Part shown: positions 179-35,398 of the stretch, one piece after another
Numbering within the stretch: the stretch's first letter is position 1
Layout: every line of letters starts with the position of its first letter
Origin: a virus
Reading direction: 5' to 3' (one strand)
DNA: 38,853 nt
IMG/VR virus record: IMGVR_UViG_3300000367_000004
Coordinates: 1 to 38,853 of that record
Notes under the pieces: generated by a model
Database searches by the model: none
Told to the model about the DNA's origin: nothing
The model's input: the letters and a program-made list of their open reading frames with translations, nothing else
Made by a program: the position numbers and the translations under genes

Positions 179-292
179 CTAGCTGCCCTTCTTGGGTCCA
201 CCCTTGCCGTGCCCATACTTACGCTTCCGAGTCGCTGCGGCCTTCTTTCCCGCCTGAACTCGCTTCGGGCTCTTGCTGCTGCCCTTCGCCAT
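179..292 (-). CDS. Very basic 37-aa protein
   Basis: Start ATG at 292 has GGGAGG at good spacing. The product (MAKGSSKSPKRV..., ending GKGGPKKGS) is about one third Lys/Arg with Gly, Ser and Ala, like a histone- or HU-type nucleic-acid-binding tail. It has no hydrophobic core, so it is probably disordered. Its first 74 nt overlap the 3' end of the gene at 219-446 in another frame. DNA or RNA compaction is an inference from composition only. Confidence 0.6.
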   Translation of the reverse strand: MAKGSSKSPKRVQAGKKAAATRKRKYGHGKGGPKKGS

Positions 293-446
293 CCTCGCCA
301 CCTCCCTTCCTCTCAAGGTGTTCTCGGTACTCACGAGCAAGCTGTTCCAGTTCCCTGCACGCAAGAATTCGGGTCGCTACAGGATAACTGGCAGCCAATC
401 TACGAACACGGGACTCCATGCGGTTCCGTATGCGGGACGGTGTCAT
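219..446 (-). CDS. Hypothetical 75-aa protein with disordered tail
   Basis: Start ATG at 446 is preceded by TAGGAGGGCAGC, a strong ribosome site overlapping the stop of the protease gene at 456. The first ~48 residues are a plausible charged helix (RELEQLAREYREHLERK). The rest is a Gly/Glu/Ser-rich tail that overlaps the basic 37-aa gene at 179-292 in a second frame. Its low complexity suggests that the lower gene constrains this sequence. Family not recognised. Confidence 0.6.
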   Translation of the reverse strand: MTPSRIRNRMESRVRRLAASYPVATRILACRELEQLAREYREHLERKGGGEDGEGQQQEPEASSGGKEGRSDSEA

Positions 447-14443: not shown

Positions 14444-17311
14444 TTACTGCTCCCTCATGTCCTTGAGTAGTTCTATCAGTTCTGGTGACAAGCGGTACGC
14501 GGTGCGCCCCGCCATCGTATCCGCCATAAGCATTCCCATCTGGCGGTACTTACTGATCTTGGCGTTGACGTCCTCCTTGCGCAGATTCATGTCGCTTTCC
14601 ATCGTTTGCGGCAAGAATACGACACCTGGCATGTCCCTGAAGAAACGCTCCAACTGCGCGTCACCCAGCAGATCGTTCATTACTGGAATTCTGTTGTCCT
14701 GGGCCAGCTTCTCACGGCCCTTGGCTTGCCGACTACGGTCCCTGTAACCGAACCCACGATTGCCATACAGGTGATCCAAGAACCTAACGGCATCCTTCAC
14801 GTGCTGCCGGGTCACCACGACGTTCGTGCCGTCGTCTGTGCTGTACGTCCGGGCAGCTATCGCTACGGCCATACGTGCGATCTTCTCGCGCATATTCGCA
14901 GCCTGAACTAGCGGTGGCTGCTCGGTGTAGCGGTGCCCCATCTTCACGGCTTGCGCCTTGGCTTCGCGCTCAGCGCCGCGCTGCCATAGCACCTGATGCG
15001 GCTTGCGCGACCACGCCCACATCACCAGGTCATGGCACAGATCTCGCGTAAATCTATGAGCTACGTGCCGTTCCCCGGTGGCATTGATAGCGTTCATGCT
15101 CACCTCGTCGCTGCGCACCGACATCGCGAAGTCAAGCCGTGCGATGTCCTCAGGGGCGCCGAGTAATTCTTGCACTACGTCCACCCCATCTCCCACTTCT
15201 CGCATAGAACGGCCACTGCGCGGGTTGCCCATCCAGATCAGGCGAGTGCGCGCTGGCACGCTGTCACTAGTGATCTGCCGAACCTCGGCTACGCCACTGC
15301 TTCGCACGCTGCTCATCTGCCCGATATCTTCGTGTGACAGCCCTGAAACCTCATCGATCACCACTAGGCGCCGATCACTCAGCGGTATGATTCCCCAGGT
15401 CACGGACCATTCGTCGTTGACCCGTTGGCTGCCGCCCAGCAAGCCCGATCGAGTTGCCGTTTCTGCTGAGACTACGCGCCCTGCTCGGTAATGCTGGGCA
15501 AGGCGTTCAGCCACTTCGCTCTTCCCGGTGCGGGTGTCGCCCGCCACCATCATCTCCAGCCATCCCTTGCGGAGCAGCTTGCCGTCGTAACGAAACCGCA
15601 GAACGCTGTGCCATACCAGATCAAAGGCAACGTGCAAGTTCTGCCGCCCTACGATATGGGTCACGTTAGCTGCCAGATCCTGGGCGATCTCGCCGCACTT
15701 CTTCAACGGCCGTTGCCCCTCTGCGGGCTGGAACACCTTGAGCCGTTCGTGCAGTTCGGGTGTCATGCGGAACCGGTCAAGGCTGGTCTCGGTGTCTTGC
15801 ACCTCCCAAGCCAAGAATTCGTTGACCTTCGTCCGCTCATTGTGAACAACCTTGCCCTTCACCTGAACGGTGCGGTTCTGCATTGTTGTGAATTCTGGTG
15901 AAACCATAATGCGCCGAATGCTGGTTAGGTCCTCCTTGTCTACGCGGCTGTCGCTTTCGTCTTCTTCATCTATGGCCCTCCTAACGCCCAACATCTGGCA
16001 GTTTTCGTATTCATGCACCTCGGTCGTCAGGTCCTTGCACAGCAAGCCAAGGTGCTTCCTCATGCTCTCTGCCAGGTTGGCACGCGGGTCCACGAGCTCC
16101 AGGATGGCATCGTCGCCAGGCGCCACGGCAACCTCCTGCTCTAACCTTCCGCCTACGCGCTCGCCCTTGCTGGACATCGGGCAGAACTGACACTTATCGC
16201 CCTTGTTCTCAAAGCATCCCACGGTCAGGCTAGACGGGTAGCTACGGGTGTCGCCCGTGCGTGCGGCCACTTGCGCTCTCATGTTCAGCGCTTGCCCTGC
16301 CAGCTTGATGTTCATGCTGTCCAGCACACTGATGTCCTGCGCGCCGTCCTGCGTTTCCTGTTTGCCTGAGATCTGCTTCGCACCGCGCATCAGCTCATCA
16401 AGTTCTTGCTTGAACAGCTCAGCCCCAACCTCGTGATACAGGTCGGTCAGGTCCTTGCCGTGCTTCTTCACTAGCTTGAACGGCAGCTGAACATCGTACA
16501 CAGACTCAGCGATTTCTTTGAGATGGTGGCGCACAACCTTCAATGCCTCGCGCCCGGTGCTGTCCCGGTCGTAGCAGACATACACCTTGCAATCCTTGAA
16601 ATGGACGCCCCACTCAGGCTTCCAGTTCTTGGCGCCACCACTGCCCGTCACGGCGTTGAATCCGTATTGCCTTGCGAGTAGGGTGTCCATCTCGCCTTCA
16701 CACAGCAGAACTGGTTCATCTGTGTCGGGTGCTGCCGGATACAGTCGGCGCTCGTTGTGCCCGGAAACTCCCCACATCTTCTTGTCGTGGTCGTGCAGAT
16801 CCAAGCGGTAACGCTTGAGATTGACGAGCTTACCGCCCTCAAAGAACGGAATCGTGTAGGCGCCCTCGTCGTTGTCCCAGCCCAGCTTGACCGCCTCGAT
16901 GGTTGCCTGCGTCAAGCCACGCCGTTCCTGTAATGCTGCCAGTGCATCCGGGTTGCTCATCAGTGCGCTGTGCCAACCTGCCACGCTGCCGAGGCTGGGT
17001 AGTGGCACCTCTCGCTTGCGCTTCGTGCGGATATCTACGACATCGGCCGTGAAACCTCCGCGATCTCCTTTCGCGGTAACCGTGCCGGTGGTTCCTCCCT
17101 CCTCCTCGATACGCCAGAGTAGTTCACCCAACGCCCCGTCCGGGCAGCCTGCGAAGCACCGCCACACTTGCTTGTCGAAGTTGTACGACGCACTCGCGTT
17201 CTGATCCTCGTGTAAAGGGCAGAATCCTGACCATTCGCCTTGCTGGTCCGGTCCGTCAACGACAAGCCACGGCCTCAGGGCGTTGATGTCAGGACGATCG
17301 TGATCCTGCAT
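14444..17311 (-). CDS. DNA primase fused to an AAA+ (MCM-like) helicase domain
   Basis: 955 aa. A CHC2-type zinc finger (Cys31, His34, Cys52, Cys56) is followed by a TOPRIM domain (LLCEGEMD, Glu205; CYDRDSTG, Asp248/Asp250), as in DnaG. A central Cys group (C366, C374, C377) may bind metal. The C-terminal half is an AAA+ ATPase: Walker A GDTRTGKS (591-598), Walker B LVVIDEVSG (Asp653/Glu654), then SSGVAEVRQ and IWMGNPRSG, more like MCM than the DnaB/T7 RecA type. It should unwind the fork and lay primers for the DnaE-like polymerase. Start ATG 17311, 13 nt after the previous stop. Confidence 0.85.
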   Translation of the reverse strand: MQDHDRPDINALRPWLVVDGPDQQGEWSGFCPLHEDQNASASYNFDKQVWRCFAGCPDGALGELLWRIEEEGGTTGTVTAKGDRGGFTADVVDIRTKRKREVPLPSLGSVAGWHSALMSNPDALAALQERRGLTQATIEAVKLGWDNDEGAYTIPFFEGGKLVNLKRYRLDLHDHDKKMWGVSGHNERRLYPAAPDTDEPVLLCEGEMDTLLARQYGFNAVTGSGGAKNWKPEWGVHFKDCKVYVCYDRDSTGREALKVVRHHLKEIAESVYDVQLPFKLVKKHGKDLTDLYHEVGAELFKQELDELMRGAKQISGKQETQDGAQDISVLDSMNIKLAGQALNMRAQVAARTGDTRSYPSSLTVGCFENKGDKCQFCPMSSKGERVGGRLEQEVAVAPGDDAILELVDPRANLAESMRKHLGLLCKDLTTEVHEYENCQMLGVRRAIDEEDESDSRVDKEDLTSIRRIMVSPEFTTMQNRTVQVKGKVVHNERTKVNEFLAWEVQDTETSLDRFRMTPELHERLKVFQPAEGQRPLKKCGEIAQDLAANVTHIVGRQNLHVAFDLVWHSVLRFRYDGKLLRKGWLEMMVAGDTRTGKSEVAERLAQHYRAGRVVSAETATRSGLLGGSQRVNDEWSVTWGIIPLSDRRLVVIDEVSGLSHEDIGQMSSVRSSGVAEVRQITSDSVPARTRLIWMGNPRSGRSMREVGDGVDVVQELLGAPEDIARLDFAMSVRSDEVSMNAINATGERHVAHRFTRDLCHDLVMWAWSRKPHQVLWQRGAEREAKAQAVKMGHRYTEQPPLVQAANMREKIARMAVAIAARTYSTDDGTNVVVTRQHVKDAVRFLDHLYGNRGFGYRDRSRQAKGREKLAQDNRIPVMNDLLGDAQLERFFRDMPGVVFLPQTMESDMNLRKEDVNAKISKYRQMGMLMADTMAGRTAYRLSPELIELLKDMREQ

Positions 17312-17688: not shown

Positions 17689-18447
17689 CTAGAAGGGAAC
17701 GTCGTCCTCCACGAGCTCCTCAACCAGCTTGTCGATCGCGGCGGCCTTCTTCAGCCCCTTGAGGCTGATCCCGTGCTCCTTGGCGAGTTCCTTGAGCTGC
17801 GCCGGGTTCATCGCCCGAATCTGCTCCTCGGTCAGCTCGTCTTCCTCTTCCTCTTCGTCGTCCCAGTCGTCGTCCTCGTCCTCCTCCAACTCCTCGGATT
17901 CGGGCTCTTCGGGCTCCAACTCGTCCTTCTCCAACTCGTCTTCCAGGCCGTCGTCCATCTCCACCGTGGCAGCGTCCTCGCCGATCGGGAAGATCGTGCC
18001 GATCTTGGCCCTGTAGTCGCCCTCCTGGTTGGAATCCGCCTTCACCACTGCCAGGAAACGGGTCTTGCCCTCGTGCTTCTCGGCGTTGAACTTCCCCTTC
18101 TTCTTCTTGGGGCTTGCCTCGCCGATCGCCTTGAAGAACTGCTTCTGCTTCCACTCGCTGGCATCGCTGAAGGACACGTAGTCCCAGATGCGCGCCCCGG
18201 TGCAGTCGCCGCCTTCCTTGCCGCTGGTCTTCAGGCTTTCGGTCTCGCCCTTGCCGTCGGCCACCACGTCCAGCACCACCTCCAGGCGGGGCCGACTCTT
18301 GTCCCCTTGGGTGTAACCGGGGATGATCTCCTTGATCAGGAAGGTGTAGACACCCGGCTTGGGCTGCTCTGCGAAGTTCGGGCTGTCGTCCTGCACGAAC
18401 TCCTCGTCGGACATGCCGCTCAGGTCAAACTCAACCATCTTTGCCAT
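17689..18447 (-). CDS. Single-stranded DNA-binding-like protein with acidic C-tip
   Basis: 252 aa. The N-terminal ~150 residues (PGVYTFLIKEIIPGY ... RLEVVLDVVADGKGETE ... WDYVSFSDASEW) form an OB-like beta domain of the DUF669/phage SSB kind. A long Glu/Asp region follows, then a SAP/Rho-N-like helix pair (NPAQLKELAKEHGISLKGL), and the chain ends EDDVPF, closely like the DDDIPF tip by which bacterial SSB recruits partners. Start ATG 18447 follows AGGAGCAAGATTC. Its neighbours are a Sak4-like ATPase and an exonuclease, which fits an annealing-type recombination module. Confidence 0.78.
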   Translation of the reverse strand: MAKMVEFDLSGMSDEEFVQDDSPNFAEQPKPGVYTFLIKEIIPGYTQGDKSRPRLEVVLDVVADGKGETESLKTSGKEGGDCTGARIWDYVSFSDASEWKQKQFFKAIGEASPKKKKGKFNAEKHEGKTRFLAVVKADSNQEGDYRAKIGTIFPIGEDAATVEMDDGLEDELEKDELEPEEPESEELEEDEDDDWDDEEEEEDELTEEQIRAMNPAQLKELAKEHGISLKGLKKAAAIDKLVEELVEDDVPF

Positions 18448-18469
18448 GAATCTTGCTCCTGTGTCGTTG

Positions 18470-19306
18470 TCAGAAGGTGAATTCGTCATCACCCTCGGGG
18501 TCGGCCTTGGGGTTCAGCTTCTTCGTTGCCTTCTTGCGCGTTGTCTTTGCTGCCTCCTTCTGTGACTGCTGCCGGACGGTGGCGATGGCATCTTCCAGTT
18601 TGGGCACCGTGGGACGCACGATTCTGCCCTTTGGGAATGCACCTAGGCCGTCCTTGGCATAGTACTCGCCGTGCGGTTGGGTGTGCAGCACCCTGACTCT
18701 ACCGTGCTCCTCCGTTTCCAGTACCTCCAGATGGCCCACGATCGTAGCGTAAGCGCAGATCTTCTCAGGCATCATCTTGCCCTGCACCCATGGCCAGATA
18801 TGTTCCTCGCCGGTCTTGGGCGACACGTACCGCATCTCGTGCGCGGTCATGCCGAAGTTGAAATCTAGCGAGGACATATGCCTGATCCACTTGGAAAGCC
18901 TGTTCATGTTCTGCAGGTATTCCGGCTTGTCAGGCACGTACTCGTCCCGGTGTGGCTTGGCAGCTACCAGGTCGGCCATCAGCCCGTCCATGCCGATTTC
19001 TTGGAGTAGGGGCACGCTATCGGCCCATACCCATCGGTAGCCGTGCTTCTCGTGGCGCAGGTACTCGTGGATCTCGTCCAGGTCCGCCCACTCAGCTGCC
19101 ACGTACTCGTCCACCTTGAACTTCGGGTGGTGAATGCTGATGGTGTCGGTGTTCTCAATGGCTGAGCGGATGATCAGCGTGTCATGGTCCTTGCGCGCAC
19201 TGCTGCCCGCAAGCCACGTCTTTCCGACGCCTGGATCGGCGAACACCATGATGTTGAACTGCGGCCGGTCACTGTTGACCGTGCGAATCCCGGTTGGCTT
19301 ACTCAT
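18470..19306 (-). CDS. Sak4-like RecA-fold ATPase (recombinase)
   Basis: 278 aa. Walker A is ADPGVGKTW (Lys29, Thr30) and Walker B is RWVWADS (Asp96), typical of the short RecA-core AAA_24/Sak4 proteins that promote single-strand annealing or exchange in phages. The C-terminus is a basic Lys/Thr-rich tail (TTRKKATKKLN) ending DDEFTF. It starts within the 3' end of the Cas4-like gene (8-nt overlap) and precedes the SSB-like gene, the usual order of such modules. A replisome ATPase is the alternative. Confidence 0.8.
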   Translation of the reverse strand: MSKPTGIRTVNSDRPQFNIMVFADPGVGKTWLAGSSARKDHDTLIIRSAIENTDTISIHHPKFKVDEYVAAEWADLDEIHEYLRHEKHGYRWVWADSVPLLQEIGMDGLMADLVAAKPHRDEYVPDKPEYLQNMNRLSKWIRHMSSLDFNFGMTAHEMRYVSPKTGEEHIWPWVQGKMMPEKICAYATIVGHLEVLETEEHGRVRVLHTQPHGEYYAKDGLGAFPKGRIVRPTVPKLEDAIATVRQQSQKEAAKTTRKKATKKLNPKADPEGDDEFTF

Positions 19307-27796: not shown

Positions 27797-28066
27797 TCAG
27801 CGAACCTTGAGGGCTCCGGTGGAAACGCTGATCGCGCGGTACCCGCCCGGGAACTTCAGGGTGGCCTCAATCCCGCGGAAACCACCGTTGCTTTCGCCGA
27901 CGACCTGGCACTCGGTCCCGGCCGGGAATTCCTTGCGAGACACAACGCGGAACTCGGGGTCCCAGGTGGTGATGGTCGCCTGAACCGGGCGAGCGAGGGT
28001 GACGTAGGTGCCACGCTGCACGCGGTTCCGGTAGCTGGCCTTCTTCTCGGCGTTGTGGTTGATCAT
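27797..28066 (-). CDS. Hypothetical 89-aa beta-rich protein
   Basis: Start ATG at 28066 follows AGGAGGCACCAAG. After a polar N-terminus (MINHNAEKKASYRNRVQ) the sequence is a run of short strands (GTYVTLARPVQATITTWDPEFRVVSRKEFPAGTECQVVG), possibly an SH3- or OB-like fold. Own promoter at 28107-28135. Family not recognised. Confidence 0.75.
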   Translation of the reverse strand: MINHNAEKKASYRNRVQRGTYVTLARPVQATITTWDPEFRVVSRKEFPAGTECQVVGESNGGFRGIEATLKFPGGYRAISVSTGALKVR

Positions 28067-28106
28067 CTTGGTGCCTCCTGGGTGCGGTGTGTTGCTGACA
28101 GTGGGA

Positions 28107-28135
28107 ACAGTACAGGAACCGGAGCCAGTTCGCAA
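28107..28135 (-). promoter_or_regulatory. Early promoter, TTGCGA-17-TACTGT
   Basis: TTGCGA (28135-28130) and TACTGT (28112-28107), with GGAACC/GGTTCC arms around the -35. It lies between the HTH regulator stop and the 89-aa gene. Confidence 0.78.
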
Positions 28136-31343: not shown

Positions 31344-32129
31344 CTAGAATTCTAGCTCGGCCTCCGTGCCATCGTACAGCTTCTTCCAGCTGATGCGTGG
31401 CCACACCTGGCCGTTCTTGCGGGTGGTCAAACTGACGAACTCTGGGTATTCAGCCGCTAGTTCTGTAGCTTCCTTCAGCGCACGGGTGTTCACAGCGTCC
31501 TCGCTGCTCAGCTGCTCAGCGCTTTCGTTGCCACCCTTCGCCCATCGCGCCTGCACGCCTGCGCAGTGCGCCTCAGTGTGGATCCACCACGGCCCGTAGC
31601 CTGCCAGCACCGCACGGATCACCAGTTCAGCGTCCTCGCGCAGCCAATACTTCGTGCGAATTCCGCCGAGTTCCAGGTATAGATCAATGGAATACGCTTT
31701 CACGTTGTATCCCATGGATCCCTTGTGTGGCTGAACGCCCGTGTGCGGTGGCATGTCCAGCCAGTTCTGGTAGATGCGGTTCCAGGCGCCGATACCCAGC
31801 TGTTCAGGGTTGTCCTGCAACCATTGCTCCATCAGCTGCCAGTTGCGCGCCTCTCCTGCTGGAACGTAGTCGTCGTCGCAGATCGTAATCGTGCTGTGGC
31901 CACGCTTGGCAGCGTGCTCAACTGCCGAATTCCTGCTGTACGGCAGCCCTTGGTCCTGCTTCTCAAGCGTTACGATCTGGGCGCGCACACCCGTTTCGTC
32001 AATGGCTCGCTCGTAGGCTGCCACGTCGGGCGCCTCCACCACGAGGCGGATCTCCATCCCGGTTGCTGCCCACTTGGGTAGGTGCTTCTTGACCAGTTCT
32101 GCGCGCTGTCGCGTGTTGATATACAGCAT
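31344..32129 (-). CDS. Glycosyltransferase (GT-A fold, GT2-like)
   Basis: 261 aa. GLPYSRNSAVEHA (Arg66, Asn67) followed by ITICDDDYVP (DDD at 85-87) is the nucleotide-sugar and metal site of GT-A enzymes. LGGIRTKYWLREDAELVIRAVLAGYGPW provides the downstream acidic catalytic segment. Phage GTs decorate modified DNA bases, host surface glycans or virion proteins; its place among early genes favours DNA or host envelope over virion. It comes just after a hairpin (32162-32193). ATG 32129 with AGGACAGAAC. Confidence 0.82.
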   Translation of the reverse strand: MLYINTRQRAELVKKHLPKWAATGMEIRLVVEAPDVAAYERAIDETGVRAQIVTLEKQDQGLPYSRNSAVEHAAKRGHSTITICDDDYVPAGEARNWQLMEQWLQDNPEQLGIGAWNRIYQNWLDMPPHTGVQPHKGSMGYNVKAYSIDLYLELGGIRTKYWLREDAELVIRAVLAGYGPWWIHTEAHCAGVQARWAKGGNESAEQLSSEDAVNTRALKEATELAAEYPEFVSLTTRKNGQVWPRISWKKLYDGTEAELEF

Positions 32130-32202: not shown

Positions 32203-32913
32203 TCAGGCGACGGCGGTCACCTGGTCAAGCGGGAACGTGCGCTCCTTGCCGTCGGTGGTGTTGACCTTCGCGCCCCACCGGCCGGACTTGGCTTGCTTCA
32301 CGGCAGCCACCTCGGCCACCTGCACCTCCACGGTGCCACTGCCCTTCTTGACGGTGACGGTCTTGCCGTTCAGCGCTTCGCCGACCTCCTCTTCGGTCGG
32401 GTTCTCGCTGAATTCCGGCACCGTGGCCGCCACTTCGTCCTCGGTCTCGCCGGTGTCGTTGTCCGCCACGTCGGCAGGCTCCGCCTTCGCGGGCTTGGGC
32501 TTGGGCTTGGCTGCGCCGTTCTCCTCGCCCTTGGGGCGTCCGCCACGGCCCAGAACGGACTCGGTGTACGGGATACCCGTGGTCTCCTCGTACAGGGACT
32601 CCACGCGGCCCTCGCTGACGCCGCCCAGTCGGGCGCCGATCACGGCCCATCCCTGCTGCTCCTTGTCCCGCGCCTTCACCAGCTTCTCGCGGAACTCCTT
32701 CTCGCTGCGGAACGGGATCAGCCCGTGCTCGTGCACCAGTGCGGCCAGCCCGACCACCGACGGGGGAACGCCCAGCTGCTCAGCGGCCTCCTTGCGGGTC
32801 GCGGCCTCGGCCAGCGCCTTCGCGGCCTTCTCCGTGAACTCCGTGTCGGTGTACGGGCCACGGGGCAGCTTCAGTCGTGGGATCTCCAGCTTGTCAAACG
32901 CTTGCTGTGCCAT
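32203..32913 (-). CDS. Putative DNA-binding early regulator, 236 aa
   Basis: Start ATG at 32913 follows AAGGAGTACGACAG; a longer in-frame extension runs through the promoter and is rejected. Residues ~25-95 have two HTH-like helices (RKEAAEQLGVPPSVVGLAALV; AVIGARLGGVSEGRVESLY). GRGGRPKGEE is AT-hook-like, then a Lys/Pro/Ala linker and acidic stretch, and a small C-terminal beta domain (GKTVTVKKGSGTVEVQVAEV). It is the first gene after the late terminator, with up to three promoters, as expected for a master early protein. Confidence 0.7.
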   Translation of the reverse strand: MAQQAFDKLEIPRLKLPRGPYTDTEFTEKAAKALAEAATRKEAAEQLGVPPSVVGLAALVHEHGLIPFRSEKEFREKLVKARDKEQQGWAVIGARLGGVSEGRVESLYEETTGIPYTESVLGRGGRPKGEENGAAKPKPKPAKAEPADVADNDTGETEDEVAATVPEFSENPTEEEVGEALNGKTVTVKKGSGTVEVQVAEVAAVKQAKSGRWGAKVNTTDGKERTFPLDQVTAVA

Positions 32914-32980
32914 CTGTCGTACTCCTTGGGGCCTCTGACCCCGGTTGGGTGTGCCGCCCTCAGTGCGGCAACTGGTGGGA

Positions 32981-33009
32981 ACATTACGTGGGTTCTTGCC
33001 GCCTTGCAA
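32981..33009 (-). promoter_or_regulatory. Early promoter, TTGCAA-17-TAATGT
   Basis: TTGCAA (33009-33004) and TAATGT (32986-32981), the best -10 of the set. It lies 68 nt before the start of the 236-aa regulator. Confidence 0.8.
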
Positions 33010-33066
33010 GGAACTGTGCGCTAGATGCACACTCTGTTTTCTGCCCTCCTGTTTCTGCTGGACGGC

Positions 33067-33095
33067 AACGTACACCTACGCAGAGAGCCTTGCAA
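33067..33095 (-). promoter_or_regulatory. Early promoter, TTGCAA-17-TACGTT
   Basis: TTGCAA (33095-33090) and TACGTT (33072-33067), tandem with the promoter 86 nt downstream. Between them AGGAGGG precedes a trivial GTG-TGC-ATC-TAG frame that is probably meaningless. Confidence 0.65.
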
Positions 33096-33159: not shown

Positions 33160-33265
33160 TCACCTAATCCTTGGGCCACCGAGGTTTCTATGGTGACTTC
33201 CGCCCCGCCACGGCCGGGCTGTCTTACACCCGAATCATACCACTTCTTTGAGATAAGACAAGAAG

Positions 33266-33293
33266 AAAGCCCGAGTTCAGCAACTCGGGCTTT
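33266..33293 (-). terminator. Strong rho-independent terminator after the lysis cassette
   Basis: AAAGCCCGAGTT pairs with AACTCGGGCTTT around a 4-nt loop, and the minus strand continues CTTCTTGTC. It begins 26 nt after the endolysin stop, closing the late operon ahead of the early region. Confidence 0.9.
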
Positions 33294-33318
33294 CATCCCC
33301 TCGGTGGCGGTGAGGTGA

Positions 33319-33705
33319 CTAATCCACGAGTTGGACCAGGTCTGCTCGGGTTGTGACGAAGAATGGGCCTGCGCCACGGCTGTTCCGCACGCGGTACCAC
33401 CTGCTCGTCCCCTCGGTGTGGATCCCTTCAATGACCGGGAAGTGCTGGCCTCTGGAGAACTGGCCGGTGGGGCGCTCCCACCGTGGGCTGTCGTAGAAGT
33501 TGACGCTCGGCGCCGTGGCGCGTAGGCGCTTGCCTTCCCATGGCTCGCTCTGCGGTGGCGCAGGCGGCGCAGGTTGCTCCTCGGGTGGCACGTTGCCGAA
33601 GGCTGCCGCGAGTGCGGTACGGGTGCGTGCCCCTGGAATTCCATCGCTGGGGCCAGGGTCGTAGCCTGCGTCCCTCAGCGCGTCCTGTATCAGTTTGGTT
33701 GCCAT
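33319..33705 (-). CDS. Internal-start product: endolysin cell-wall-binding region, 128 aa
   Basis: Within the endolysin gene, AGGAGG lies 5 nt before an in-frame ATG at 33705, the best Shine-Dalgarno of the gene. The product would begin MATKLIQDALRDAG and contain exactly the peptidoglycan-binding repeat and SH3b-like region without the catalytic domain. Endolysins of some clostridial and enterococcal phages use such internal starts to make hetero-oligomers. Expression here is inference. Confidence 0.6.
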   Translation of the reverse strand: MATKLIQDALRDAGYDPGPSDGIPGARTRTALAAAFGNVPPEEQPAPPAPPQSEPWEGKRLRATAPSVNFYDSPRWERPTGQFSRGQHFPVIEGIHTEGTSRWYRVRNSRGAGPFFVTTRADLVQLVD

Positions 33706-34359
33706 CGCTTCCTCCTGGTCCTGTATCGGCGGTGCCGGGGTAGGTGTCGGTGCGGGTGTCGGCGGAACCGGGGTCGTATTCCCCAGATATTGGTTGATCA
33801 GCTGGAAGAACAGCGTGGCCGGGAAGTTGGCTCCGGGGTCACTGCGGCGAGCGGGATCTGCCACTGAGTGACGGATAAATCCCTTGATTCCACGATTCGC
33901 CTGAGCCAGTGTGATCCAGCGCACCGGGATGCCGTACAGCCGAGACCATTGCGCGCACTGCCACGCCGCGTTCTGCAACATTCTGCGCTCTGGTGCTGAA
34001 ACGCTCGTCGTCCAACGATGGGCCTGGTGGAGGAAGCTGATCCCCAGACTGCGCGTATTCAGCCCAACGGTGTGGAATCCTGTGGAAACGTCACGGAGTG
34101 TTCGTAGCAGTGTGGGCGCCTGGTCAACGATCACGTGGTAGCTGGTCGGCGTTGGCGCCGTGTGCGCCTGCCAGTTCGCTACGTTGCGGGCGCTGCCGCG
34201 CATGATGTCGTTCTCTGTGGTGTGGACAGCGATGCACGTGATCGCTCCTAGACCACCGGCGCGTGTGGGATGGCCCCAGAAGCGAACGCCATTGCTACGA
34301 ACTGCTGAGTGTGGATTGGTTCTTGTTGAAAGTAAGAATTCTGTGATACTCGGGGTCAT
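33319..34359 (-). CDS. Endolysin: PGRP-type N-acetylmuramoyl-L-alanine amidase
   Basis: 346 aa. Amidase_2/PGRP fold with zinc ligands His46 (VHTTEN), His164 (RHSVADP) and the Asp174 region (SDPGANFP), plus His75 in SYHVIVD; it should cleave the MurNAc-L-Ala bond of peptidoglycan. A Pro/Thr linker (~196-210) leads to a PG_binding_1-like repeat (KLIQDALRDAGYDPGPSDGIPG, ~220-255) and an SH3b-like end (280-346). No signal peptide, so a holin is needed. It overlaps the previous stop (TAATG). A strong internal ribosome site precedes Met218. Confidence 0.92.
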   Translation of the reverse strand: MTPSITEFLLSTRTNPHSAVRSNGVRFWGHPTRAGGLGAITCIAVHTTENDIMRGSARNVANWQAHTAPTPTSYHVIVDQAPTLLRTLRDVSTGFHTVGLNTRSLGISFLHQAHRWTTSVSAPERRMLQNAAWQCAQWSRLYGIPVRWITLAQANRGIKGFIRHSVADPARRSDPGANFPATLFFQLINQYLGNTTPVPPTPAPTPTPAPPIQDQEEAMATKLIQDALRDAGYDPGPSDGIPGARTRTALAAAFGNVPPEEQPAPPAPPQSEPWEGKRLRATAPSVNFYDSPRWERPTGQFSRGQHFPVIEGIHTEGTSRWYRVRNSRGAGPFFVTTRADLVQLVD

Positions 34360-34769
34360 TACTCGCCCCCTGGGAGTAGGTTACGGATCGGGCCATCGTG
34401 ACTGTTCTCGCGCAGCTCATCTATCGTGGGTGGTGGTACCTCGAGCAGTAGGTTACAGTCCTGCTCACGGAGTAGTGGCTCTACCTCCATCATGAACTGT
34501 TCACGGGCTTCTGCCCTTTCAGCTTCCTCTTCGAACTCCGTTTGACGGTTCAGCTCAAGGATTTCCCACATCGTGTTCTTCAGTTCGTTCTGCGACTCGC
34601 AGTTGACGACTGCACGAATTCTTGCGTTAGCGGCCACCTGGTCGGCAACATTCTGCGTCTGGAAGAAGCCTGCCGCCATGGCAGCTACCACGATCAACCA
34701 TCCGATGAAACCTGCGTGGTTCACCAGAAAACGGTGCCAACCCCTTTCTTCTATCTGTTCATTATCCAT
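34359..34769 (-). CDS. Membrane protein with coiled coil, 136 aa (lysis cassette)
   Basis: Start ATG at 34769 follows GGAGCTACGA; a TTG at 34781 is less likely. One membrane helix (AGFIGWLIVVAAMAAGFF, ~22-39) is followed by a long Glu/Arg-rich coiled coil (WEILELNRQTEFEEEAERAEAREQF) and a Pro-containing tail. It may be a holin partner or spanin-like protein, since it lies directly before the endolysin. Confidence 0.75.
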   Translation of the reverse strand: MDNEQIEERGWHRFLVNHAGFIGWLIVVAAMAAGFFQTQNVADQVAANARIRAVVNCESQNELKNTMWEILELNRQTEFEEEAERAEAREQFMMEVEPLLREQDCNLLLEVPPPTIDELRENSHDGPIRNLLPGGE

Positions 34770-35140: not shown

Positions 35141-35398
35141 CTACCGGACCTTCACATACTGGTCATTCAGTGGCTCTCCTACGCCATCAAGCGGAACGGT
35201 GTACTCCTCAGCTTGCGTGGTGCCCTTGCCCAGCACACCTAACAGCACCAGCACGTTGAGCGCAGCCACGGCGATTTCCTGCCAACCCTCGGTGACGTCC
35301 GAGGCGATGCCAGCGGCGGCAGCCACCGTGACGATCGCCTGCACGAGAACTACCCAGAACATCTGCTTCCGGATGGGGTGTCGTTCGTCCAGATTCAT
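35141..35398 (-). CDS. Holin-like membrane protein, 85 aa
   Basis: Start ATG at 35398 follows AGGAGATAACTCA. After a charged N-terminus (MNLDERHPIRKQ) come two helices (MFWVVLVQAIVTVAAAAGIA and EIAVAALNVLVLLGVLG) separated by a polar turn, as in class II holins and the widespread actinophage holins. First gene of the lysis cassette, so it is the best holin candidate. Confidence 0.75.
   Translation of the reverse strand: MNLDERHPIRKQMFWVVLVQAIVTVAAAAGIASDVTEGWQEIAVAALNVLVLLGVLGKGTTQAEEYTVPLDGVGEPLNDQYVKVR

Follow-up and report, generated by a model that had tools for sequence, protein, structure and literature searches.

We found that the endolysin gene of a likely actinophage carries an in-frame ATG behind a strong Shine-Dalgarno sequence at the junction between its amidase and its predicted wall-binding part, and we consider it probable, from comparison with other phages, that this site at codon 219 is a real internal translation start, which would give a free C-terminal subunit besides the full amidase. 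The main support for an internal start comes from distant homologues, in which such signals recur at the same border between domains. The sequence examined, here called the window, comprises 38,853 bases out of a 39,778-base virus record in IMG/VR. Its DNA polymerase and helicase have protein relatives mostly in Microbacterium, Streptomyces, Gordonia and Arthrobacter phages and, because these are largely phages of Actinobacteria genera, the host is likely actinobacterial and the phage an actinophage. The lysis region and the endolysin show the following features:

35141 to 35398, minus strand: possible holin of the lysis region, upstream of the endolysin (phrog_297 holin, E 4e-4)
34366 to 34371, minus strand: AGGGGG, Shine-Dalgarno-like, serving the full-length endolysin start (pairing -9.4 kcal/mol)
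33319 to 34359, minus strand: endolysin gene, 346 aa, 38.0 kDa, whose ATG start overlaps the stop of the upstream gene (TAATG)
33832 to 34245, minus strand: Amidase_2 domain (Pfam PF01510), residues 39-176
33706 to 33783, minus strand: linker rich in Pro, residues 193-218, modelled with low confidence
33711 to 33716, minus strand: AGGAGG, internal Shine-Dalgarno sequence, 5 nt ahead of the internal ATG
33703 to 33705, minus strand: candidate ATG for internal initiation, codon 219 of the endolysin frame, next codon GCA (Ala)
33319 to 33705, minus strand: predicted short product, 128 aa, 14.0 kDa, pI 8.2
33604 to 33696, minus strand: PG_binding_1-like stretch, partial, residues 222-252 (Pfam match below cut-off)
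33331 to 33534, minus strand: SH3-like C-terminal domain, residues 276-343 (phrog_2338 and weak fold matches)
33265 to 33294, minus strand: terminator-like hairpin 3' of the endolysin stop, with a 13 bp stem and a T-rich tail

A glycosyltransferase-like protein (31344-32129, minus strand; weak matches to phrog_842 and phrog_2456) is encoded near the lysis region.

In the endolysin one catalytic domain, at the N-terminus, precedes a predicted wall-binding C-terminus, made of the partial PG_binding_1-like stretch and the SH3-like domain. The Amidase_2 profile passed its cut-off (45.6 bits vs a gathering threshold of 26), and residues H46, H164 and D174, invariant in the alignment, are likely the zinc ligands, judging by their role in the family. 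In the structure model the last amidase helix ends near residue 192. The PG_binding_1 profile (PF01471) missed its gathering cut-off (19.9 bits, or 21.7 for the short product, vs 23) and covered 31 of 57 positions, and for the SH3-like end Foldseek matched bacterial SH3b domains with a probability near 1 but an E of 0.03 or worse. AlphaFold modelled the full protein at a mean pLDDT of 55 and the short product at 64; these single-chain models are of low confidence, too weak to bear on assembly, and their alignment drew on the window and IMG/VR sequences only.

The minus strand from 33716 to 33703 reads AGGAGG AAGCG ATG, so that the spacer is exactly 5 nt, as the preliminary description of this DNA had it. 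Its placement of the site at the border between amidase or linker and binding domains also holds, since codon 219 lies past Amidase_2 (end at residue 176) and the linker (end at 218) and ahead of the PG_binding_1-like match (from 222), and the product of about 14 kDa that it expected agrees with the predicted one, which contains no part of the amidase. Among the in-frame starts of the endolysin gene the codon-219 site has the best Shine-Dalgarno pairing, -10.3 kcal/mol vs -9.4 for the full-length start. The window's 46 putative genes contain 221 internal in-frame ATGs, and beyond codon 40 none of the others pairs as strongly as this one. The pattern AGGAGGN5ATG occurs three times in the window, vs 0.29 expected. 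Three further genes (2403-2984; 27797-28135; 179-364, minus strand) have their strongest Shine-Dalgarno sequence and ATG 16-24 codons within the longest reading frame, and these inner ATGs are probably their true starts.

Judged on its own gene, the codon-219 site is moderately improbable and only suggestive, and the same features that weaken it favour chance as an explanation, by which AGGAGG would simply result from encoding Gln-Glu-Glu in a phage of 60.5% G+C, lying beside a linker Met and leading to no consequential internal initiation. When the gene was resampled synonymously by phage codon usage, AGGAGG was retained in 51% of draws (p 0.5 for the endolysin gene alone), because CAG and GAG are common Gln and Glu codons in this phage. 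In-frame internal GTGs with a pairing of -10.6 to -11.0, matching that of the endolysin site, occur in putative replication and unknown genes of the window, all on the minus strand (14444-17311, codon 396; 17689-18492, codon 76; 32203-33075, codon 253). The mRNA around codon 219 is unremarkable in its openness, slightly above the gene average (z 0.4).

The comparison with other endolysins changes this picture. The preliminary description had made conservation of the start in homologues a point on which its reading would stand or fall; no close homologues of the endolysin were found by megablast with half of the window, by scanning IMG/VR and GTDB genomes with single proteins or with degenerate patterns, and among distant families the outcome favours that reading. 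The relatives of the amidase domain, at about 30% identity, are found in Arthrobacter, Rhodococcus, Gordonia and Corynebacterium phages, and of the 8 nearest families of actinophage endolysins 7 have a strong Shine-Dalgarno sequence with ATG or GTG at this domain border, the peptides encoded there being unrelated. The border sites read, from Shine-Dalgarno region to start codon and, where given, second codon:

Rizwana: CAGGAGGAATACGAC-ATG-GCT
McGonagall: CAGGAGGACGATGAC-ATG-GCA
REQ2: CCAGGAGGACCC-GTG-GCG
Tank: AGAAGGAGACGACGAC-GTG-GCA
CoffeeBean: CCAGGAGGCGGC-ATG-TCC
Wollypog: AAGGAGCTCGAC-GTG-GCA
BFK20, with wide spacing: AGGAGGACAATACCGTC-ATG-GCT
L034 (IMG/VR): ACAGGAGGTAACGAA-ATG
L017 (IMG/VR): ACAGGAGGGCTCACC-GTG
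L038 (IMG/VR): GAGGAGGGAACAATC-ATG
L025 (IMG/VR): AAGGGGGATACT-TTG
L044, inspected later: AAAAGGAGAGGAAGCT-ATG
L040, inspected later: ACAGGAGACGATGAC-GTG
L043, inspected later: ACAGGAGACGAC-ATG

In Rizwana, McGonagall and REQ2 the start codons are ATG198, ATG188 and GTG181, respectively. The eighth family (Auxilium, Shoya) has a weak border site, and several endolysins have none, for example L009, L030, L031 and L033. There is also no border start in L045 (IMGVR_UViG_3300037070_000012), whose amidase, of the same family, lies in a frame exceeding 1,500 codons that runs off the contig and possibly encodes a virion-associated protein. In lysin A of the Rhodococcus phage CoffeeBean (L012:987-2331), start-like sites are present at both domain borders, GTG144 (AAGGAGGCCGAC-GTG-GCA, pairing -12.2) preceding the amidase and ATG334 following it, and this gene could encode three nested products.

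For the statistics we used 28 representative endolysins with less than 70% identity. The border window was taken as 20 to 50 codons past the amidase DPG motif, a definition set only once the first genes had been looked at, and a site as an in-frame start with a pairing of -8 or better, one anti-Shine-Dalgarno sequence serving for all phages; in the endolysin under study the border was counted from the DPG at residue 174, another DPG being present at residue 234. Of the 28 borders 12 held a site, vs 5 among 223 in-frame windows elsewhere in these genes (Fisher 1.4e-9), although the p-values for border sites overstate independence, because the genes share ancestry. Out-of-frame border windows had a site in 1 of 56 cases (p 2.8e-6 against the in-frame count), and codon-shuffled linkers gave a mean of 1.4 and a maximum of 6 sites over 500 trials, vs the 12 observed. 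Alanine follows the start in 9 of 15 sites, vs 31 of the 400 remaining in-frame codons of start type (1e-6). In 17 genes, mRNA openness at the sites exceeds the average of the gene (mean z +1.5) and is also greater than in flanks 8-15 codons off (p 1e-4) or in linkers that have no site (p 9e-4). A family-wide synonymous-codon null gave a weak signal, with a combined p of 0.033 for borders and of about 1 for amidase controls; it is conservative, because the linker peptide itself may be shaped by the signal. Enrichment was also weaker among ten taxonomically chosen endolysins (3/10 vs 6/100 at -7, p 0.03; not significant at -8).

The recurrence of such sites at one border over unrelated peptides, together with the negative out-of-frame and shuffle controls, argues against chance, which we regard as unlikely. 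The internal start giving a free binding subunit, which the preliminary description had proposed from the site itself, is thus the best-supported reading by virtue of its distant homologues, the site alone being only suggestive. Nor is the site peculiar to this endolysin: similar ones lie at the same border in many actinophage endolysins.

A second explanation starts from the junction itself, which is constant in the endolysin comparison while the C-terminal modules differ among phages, and which resembles a gene start. Amidase and binding module would formerly have been separate genes, as suggested by actinophages such as Tonitrus in which the amidase has no C-terminal module, and after fusion the second gene would have left behind its ribosome site and its start, now without function. 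Such a remnant would be expected to decay, yet start codons, alanine second codons and open mRNA are found across divergent families, and a remnant start would still work unless silenced, so we hold a functionless relic to be quite improbable. It has also been proposed, and disputed, that Shine-Dalgarno-like sequences between domains pause ribosomes and aid co-translational folding, and the site does fall in the linker past the amidase; pausing, however, needs no start codon, yet in-frame starts and alanine are enriched here and out-of-frame starts are not, which makes this very improbable.

With an internal start as the preferred reading, one mRNA would most likely give two proteins, the full amidase of 38.0 kDa and a free C-terminal module of 14.0 kDa, with ribosomes loading on the AGGAGG in the linker region and initiating at codon 219. 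The free module may assemble with the full enzyme, so that each enzyme would have more domains with which it could bind the wall; alternatively, an unassembled module may tune lysis. We recognised no assembly element in the short product of the window. The short products of some other actinophages (L022, L034, PAS50, Neville) end, as judged by eye, in helix-forming heptad-like stretches, which would be suited to assembly and which the window product lacks. Heptad-like helical C-termini were likewise noted by eye in the predicted short products of L022, L034, L056 and L057 (for example QQLKRIEDLLKGGK and RLDRLESAVNDLKK), and such stretches could drive oligomerisation in those actinophage endolysins. 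For actinophage endolysins as a class we suggest, tentatively and with some doubt, that a portable internal start, placed where the amidase meets the C-terminal module, is retained though peptide and module differ, that the signal travels with swapped modules and that free C-terminal subunits may be general in lysis.

If this is true, the lysis enzymes of many Actinobacteria phages, mostly handled as single chains, would be two-product systems, and the purification, assay and engineering of actinophage endolysins would be affected. A short C-terminal band is predicted for many named phages, and the pattern opens the question of whether internal starts evolved in step with the swapping of modules. 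With an N-terminal tag the short form would go unseen. The vector pET-15b places its tag at the N-terminus. In the published expression of the endolysin of the C. acnes phage CAP 10-3, cloned in pET-15b, no short form is reported, and the blot could not have revealed one, because the tag is N-terminal.

The preliminary description had rightly noted that internal starts giving a free binding subunit are known in some clostridial and enterococcal endolysins. An internal start between one catalytic domain and the binding part is proven in enterococcal, clostridial, lactococcal and streptococcal phages, and in the endolysins with one catalytic domain whose association was tested the full and the short form assemble, a step believed to make wall binding more avid (PMC9430671). 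Lys170, LysIME-EF1, CTP1L, CD27L, CS74L, LysP7951 and LysLW32 are two-polypeptide endolysins of this kind (PMC9430671, PMC7098653, PMC4777826), and they share with the window endolysin an N-terminal catalytic domain, a C-terminal binding part, an internal in-frame start that lies between the two behind a ribosome site of its own and a short product, predicted here, that has no catalytic domain. They come from Firmicutes phages and both products have been shown, whereas the window endolysin belongs to a probable actinophage and its short product is a predicted one; unlike theirs, its C-terminus combines a PG_binding_1-like stretch with an SH3-like domain. In the staphylococcal phage 2638A, Ply2638A also has an internal start and an SH3-type C-terminus (SH3b), with the short form confirmed in infection (PMC12203907), but this form consists of amidase and SH3b and pairs with the full enzyme via the amidase domains, which a lone C-terminal module could not do.

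Among actinophages, internal in-frame starts are proven in two amidase endolysins, LysA of mycobacteriophage Ms6 (Lysin384/Lysin241; PMC3111421) and LysPollywog (PMC9430671), and an internal Shine-Dalgarno sequence and ATG giving a binding-domain product was raised as a sequence-based possibility for the endolysin of Clavibacter phage CMP1 (Wittmann 2010, as cited in PMC3111421), the CMP1 product having 166 aa vs 128 here. Because of these three, the actinophage setting is less unusual than the preliminary description claimed. The start of Ms6 LysA and LysPollywog precedes the amidase and leaves the short form catalytic, whereas that of the window endolysin follows it and would give a non-catalytic product; nor does the Ms6 LysA type, with the start between two catalytic domains, match the window endolysin, whose predicted short product keeps no catalytic domain. 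The confirmed actinophage starts in the literature compared (Ms6, Pollywog) thus keep a catalytic domain, and in this respect proof of the present one would be new. A screen of Gram-positive phage endolysins predicts an internal start in about half, and some of the phages named in our border-site comparison may already be included in it. Set beside these systems, the more interesting result is that the signal recurs at a single border in actinophage endolysins whose C-terminal modules differ.
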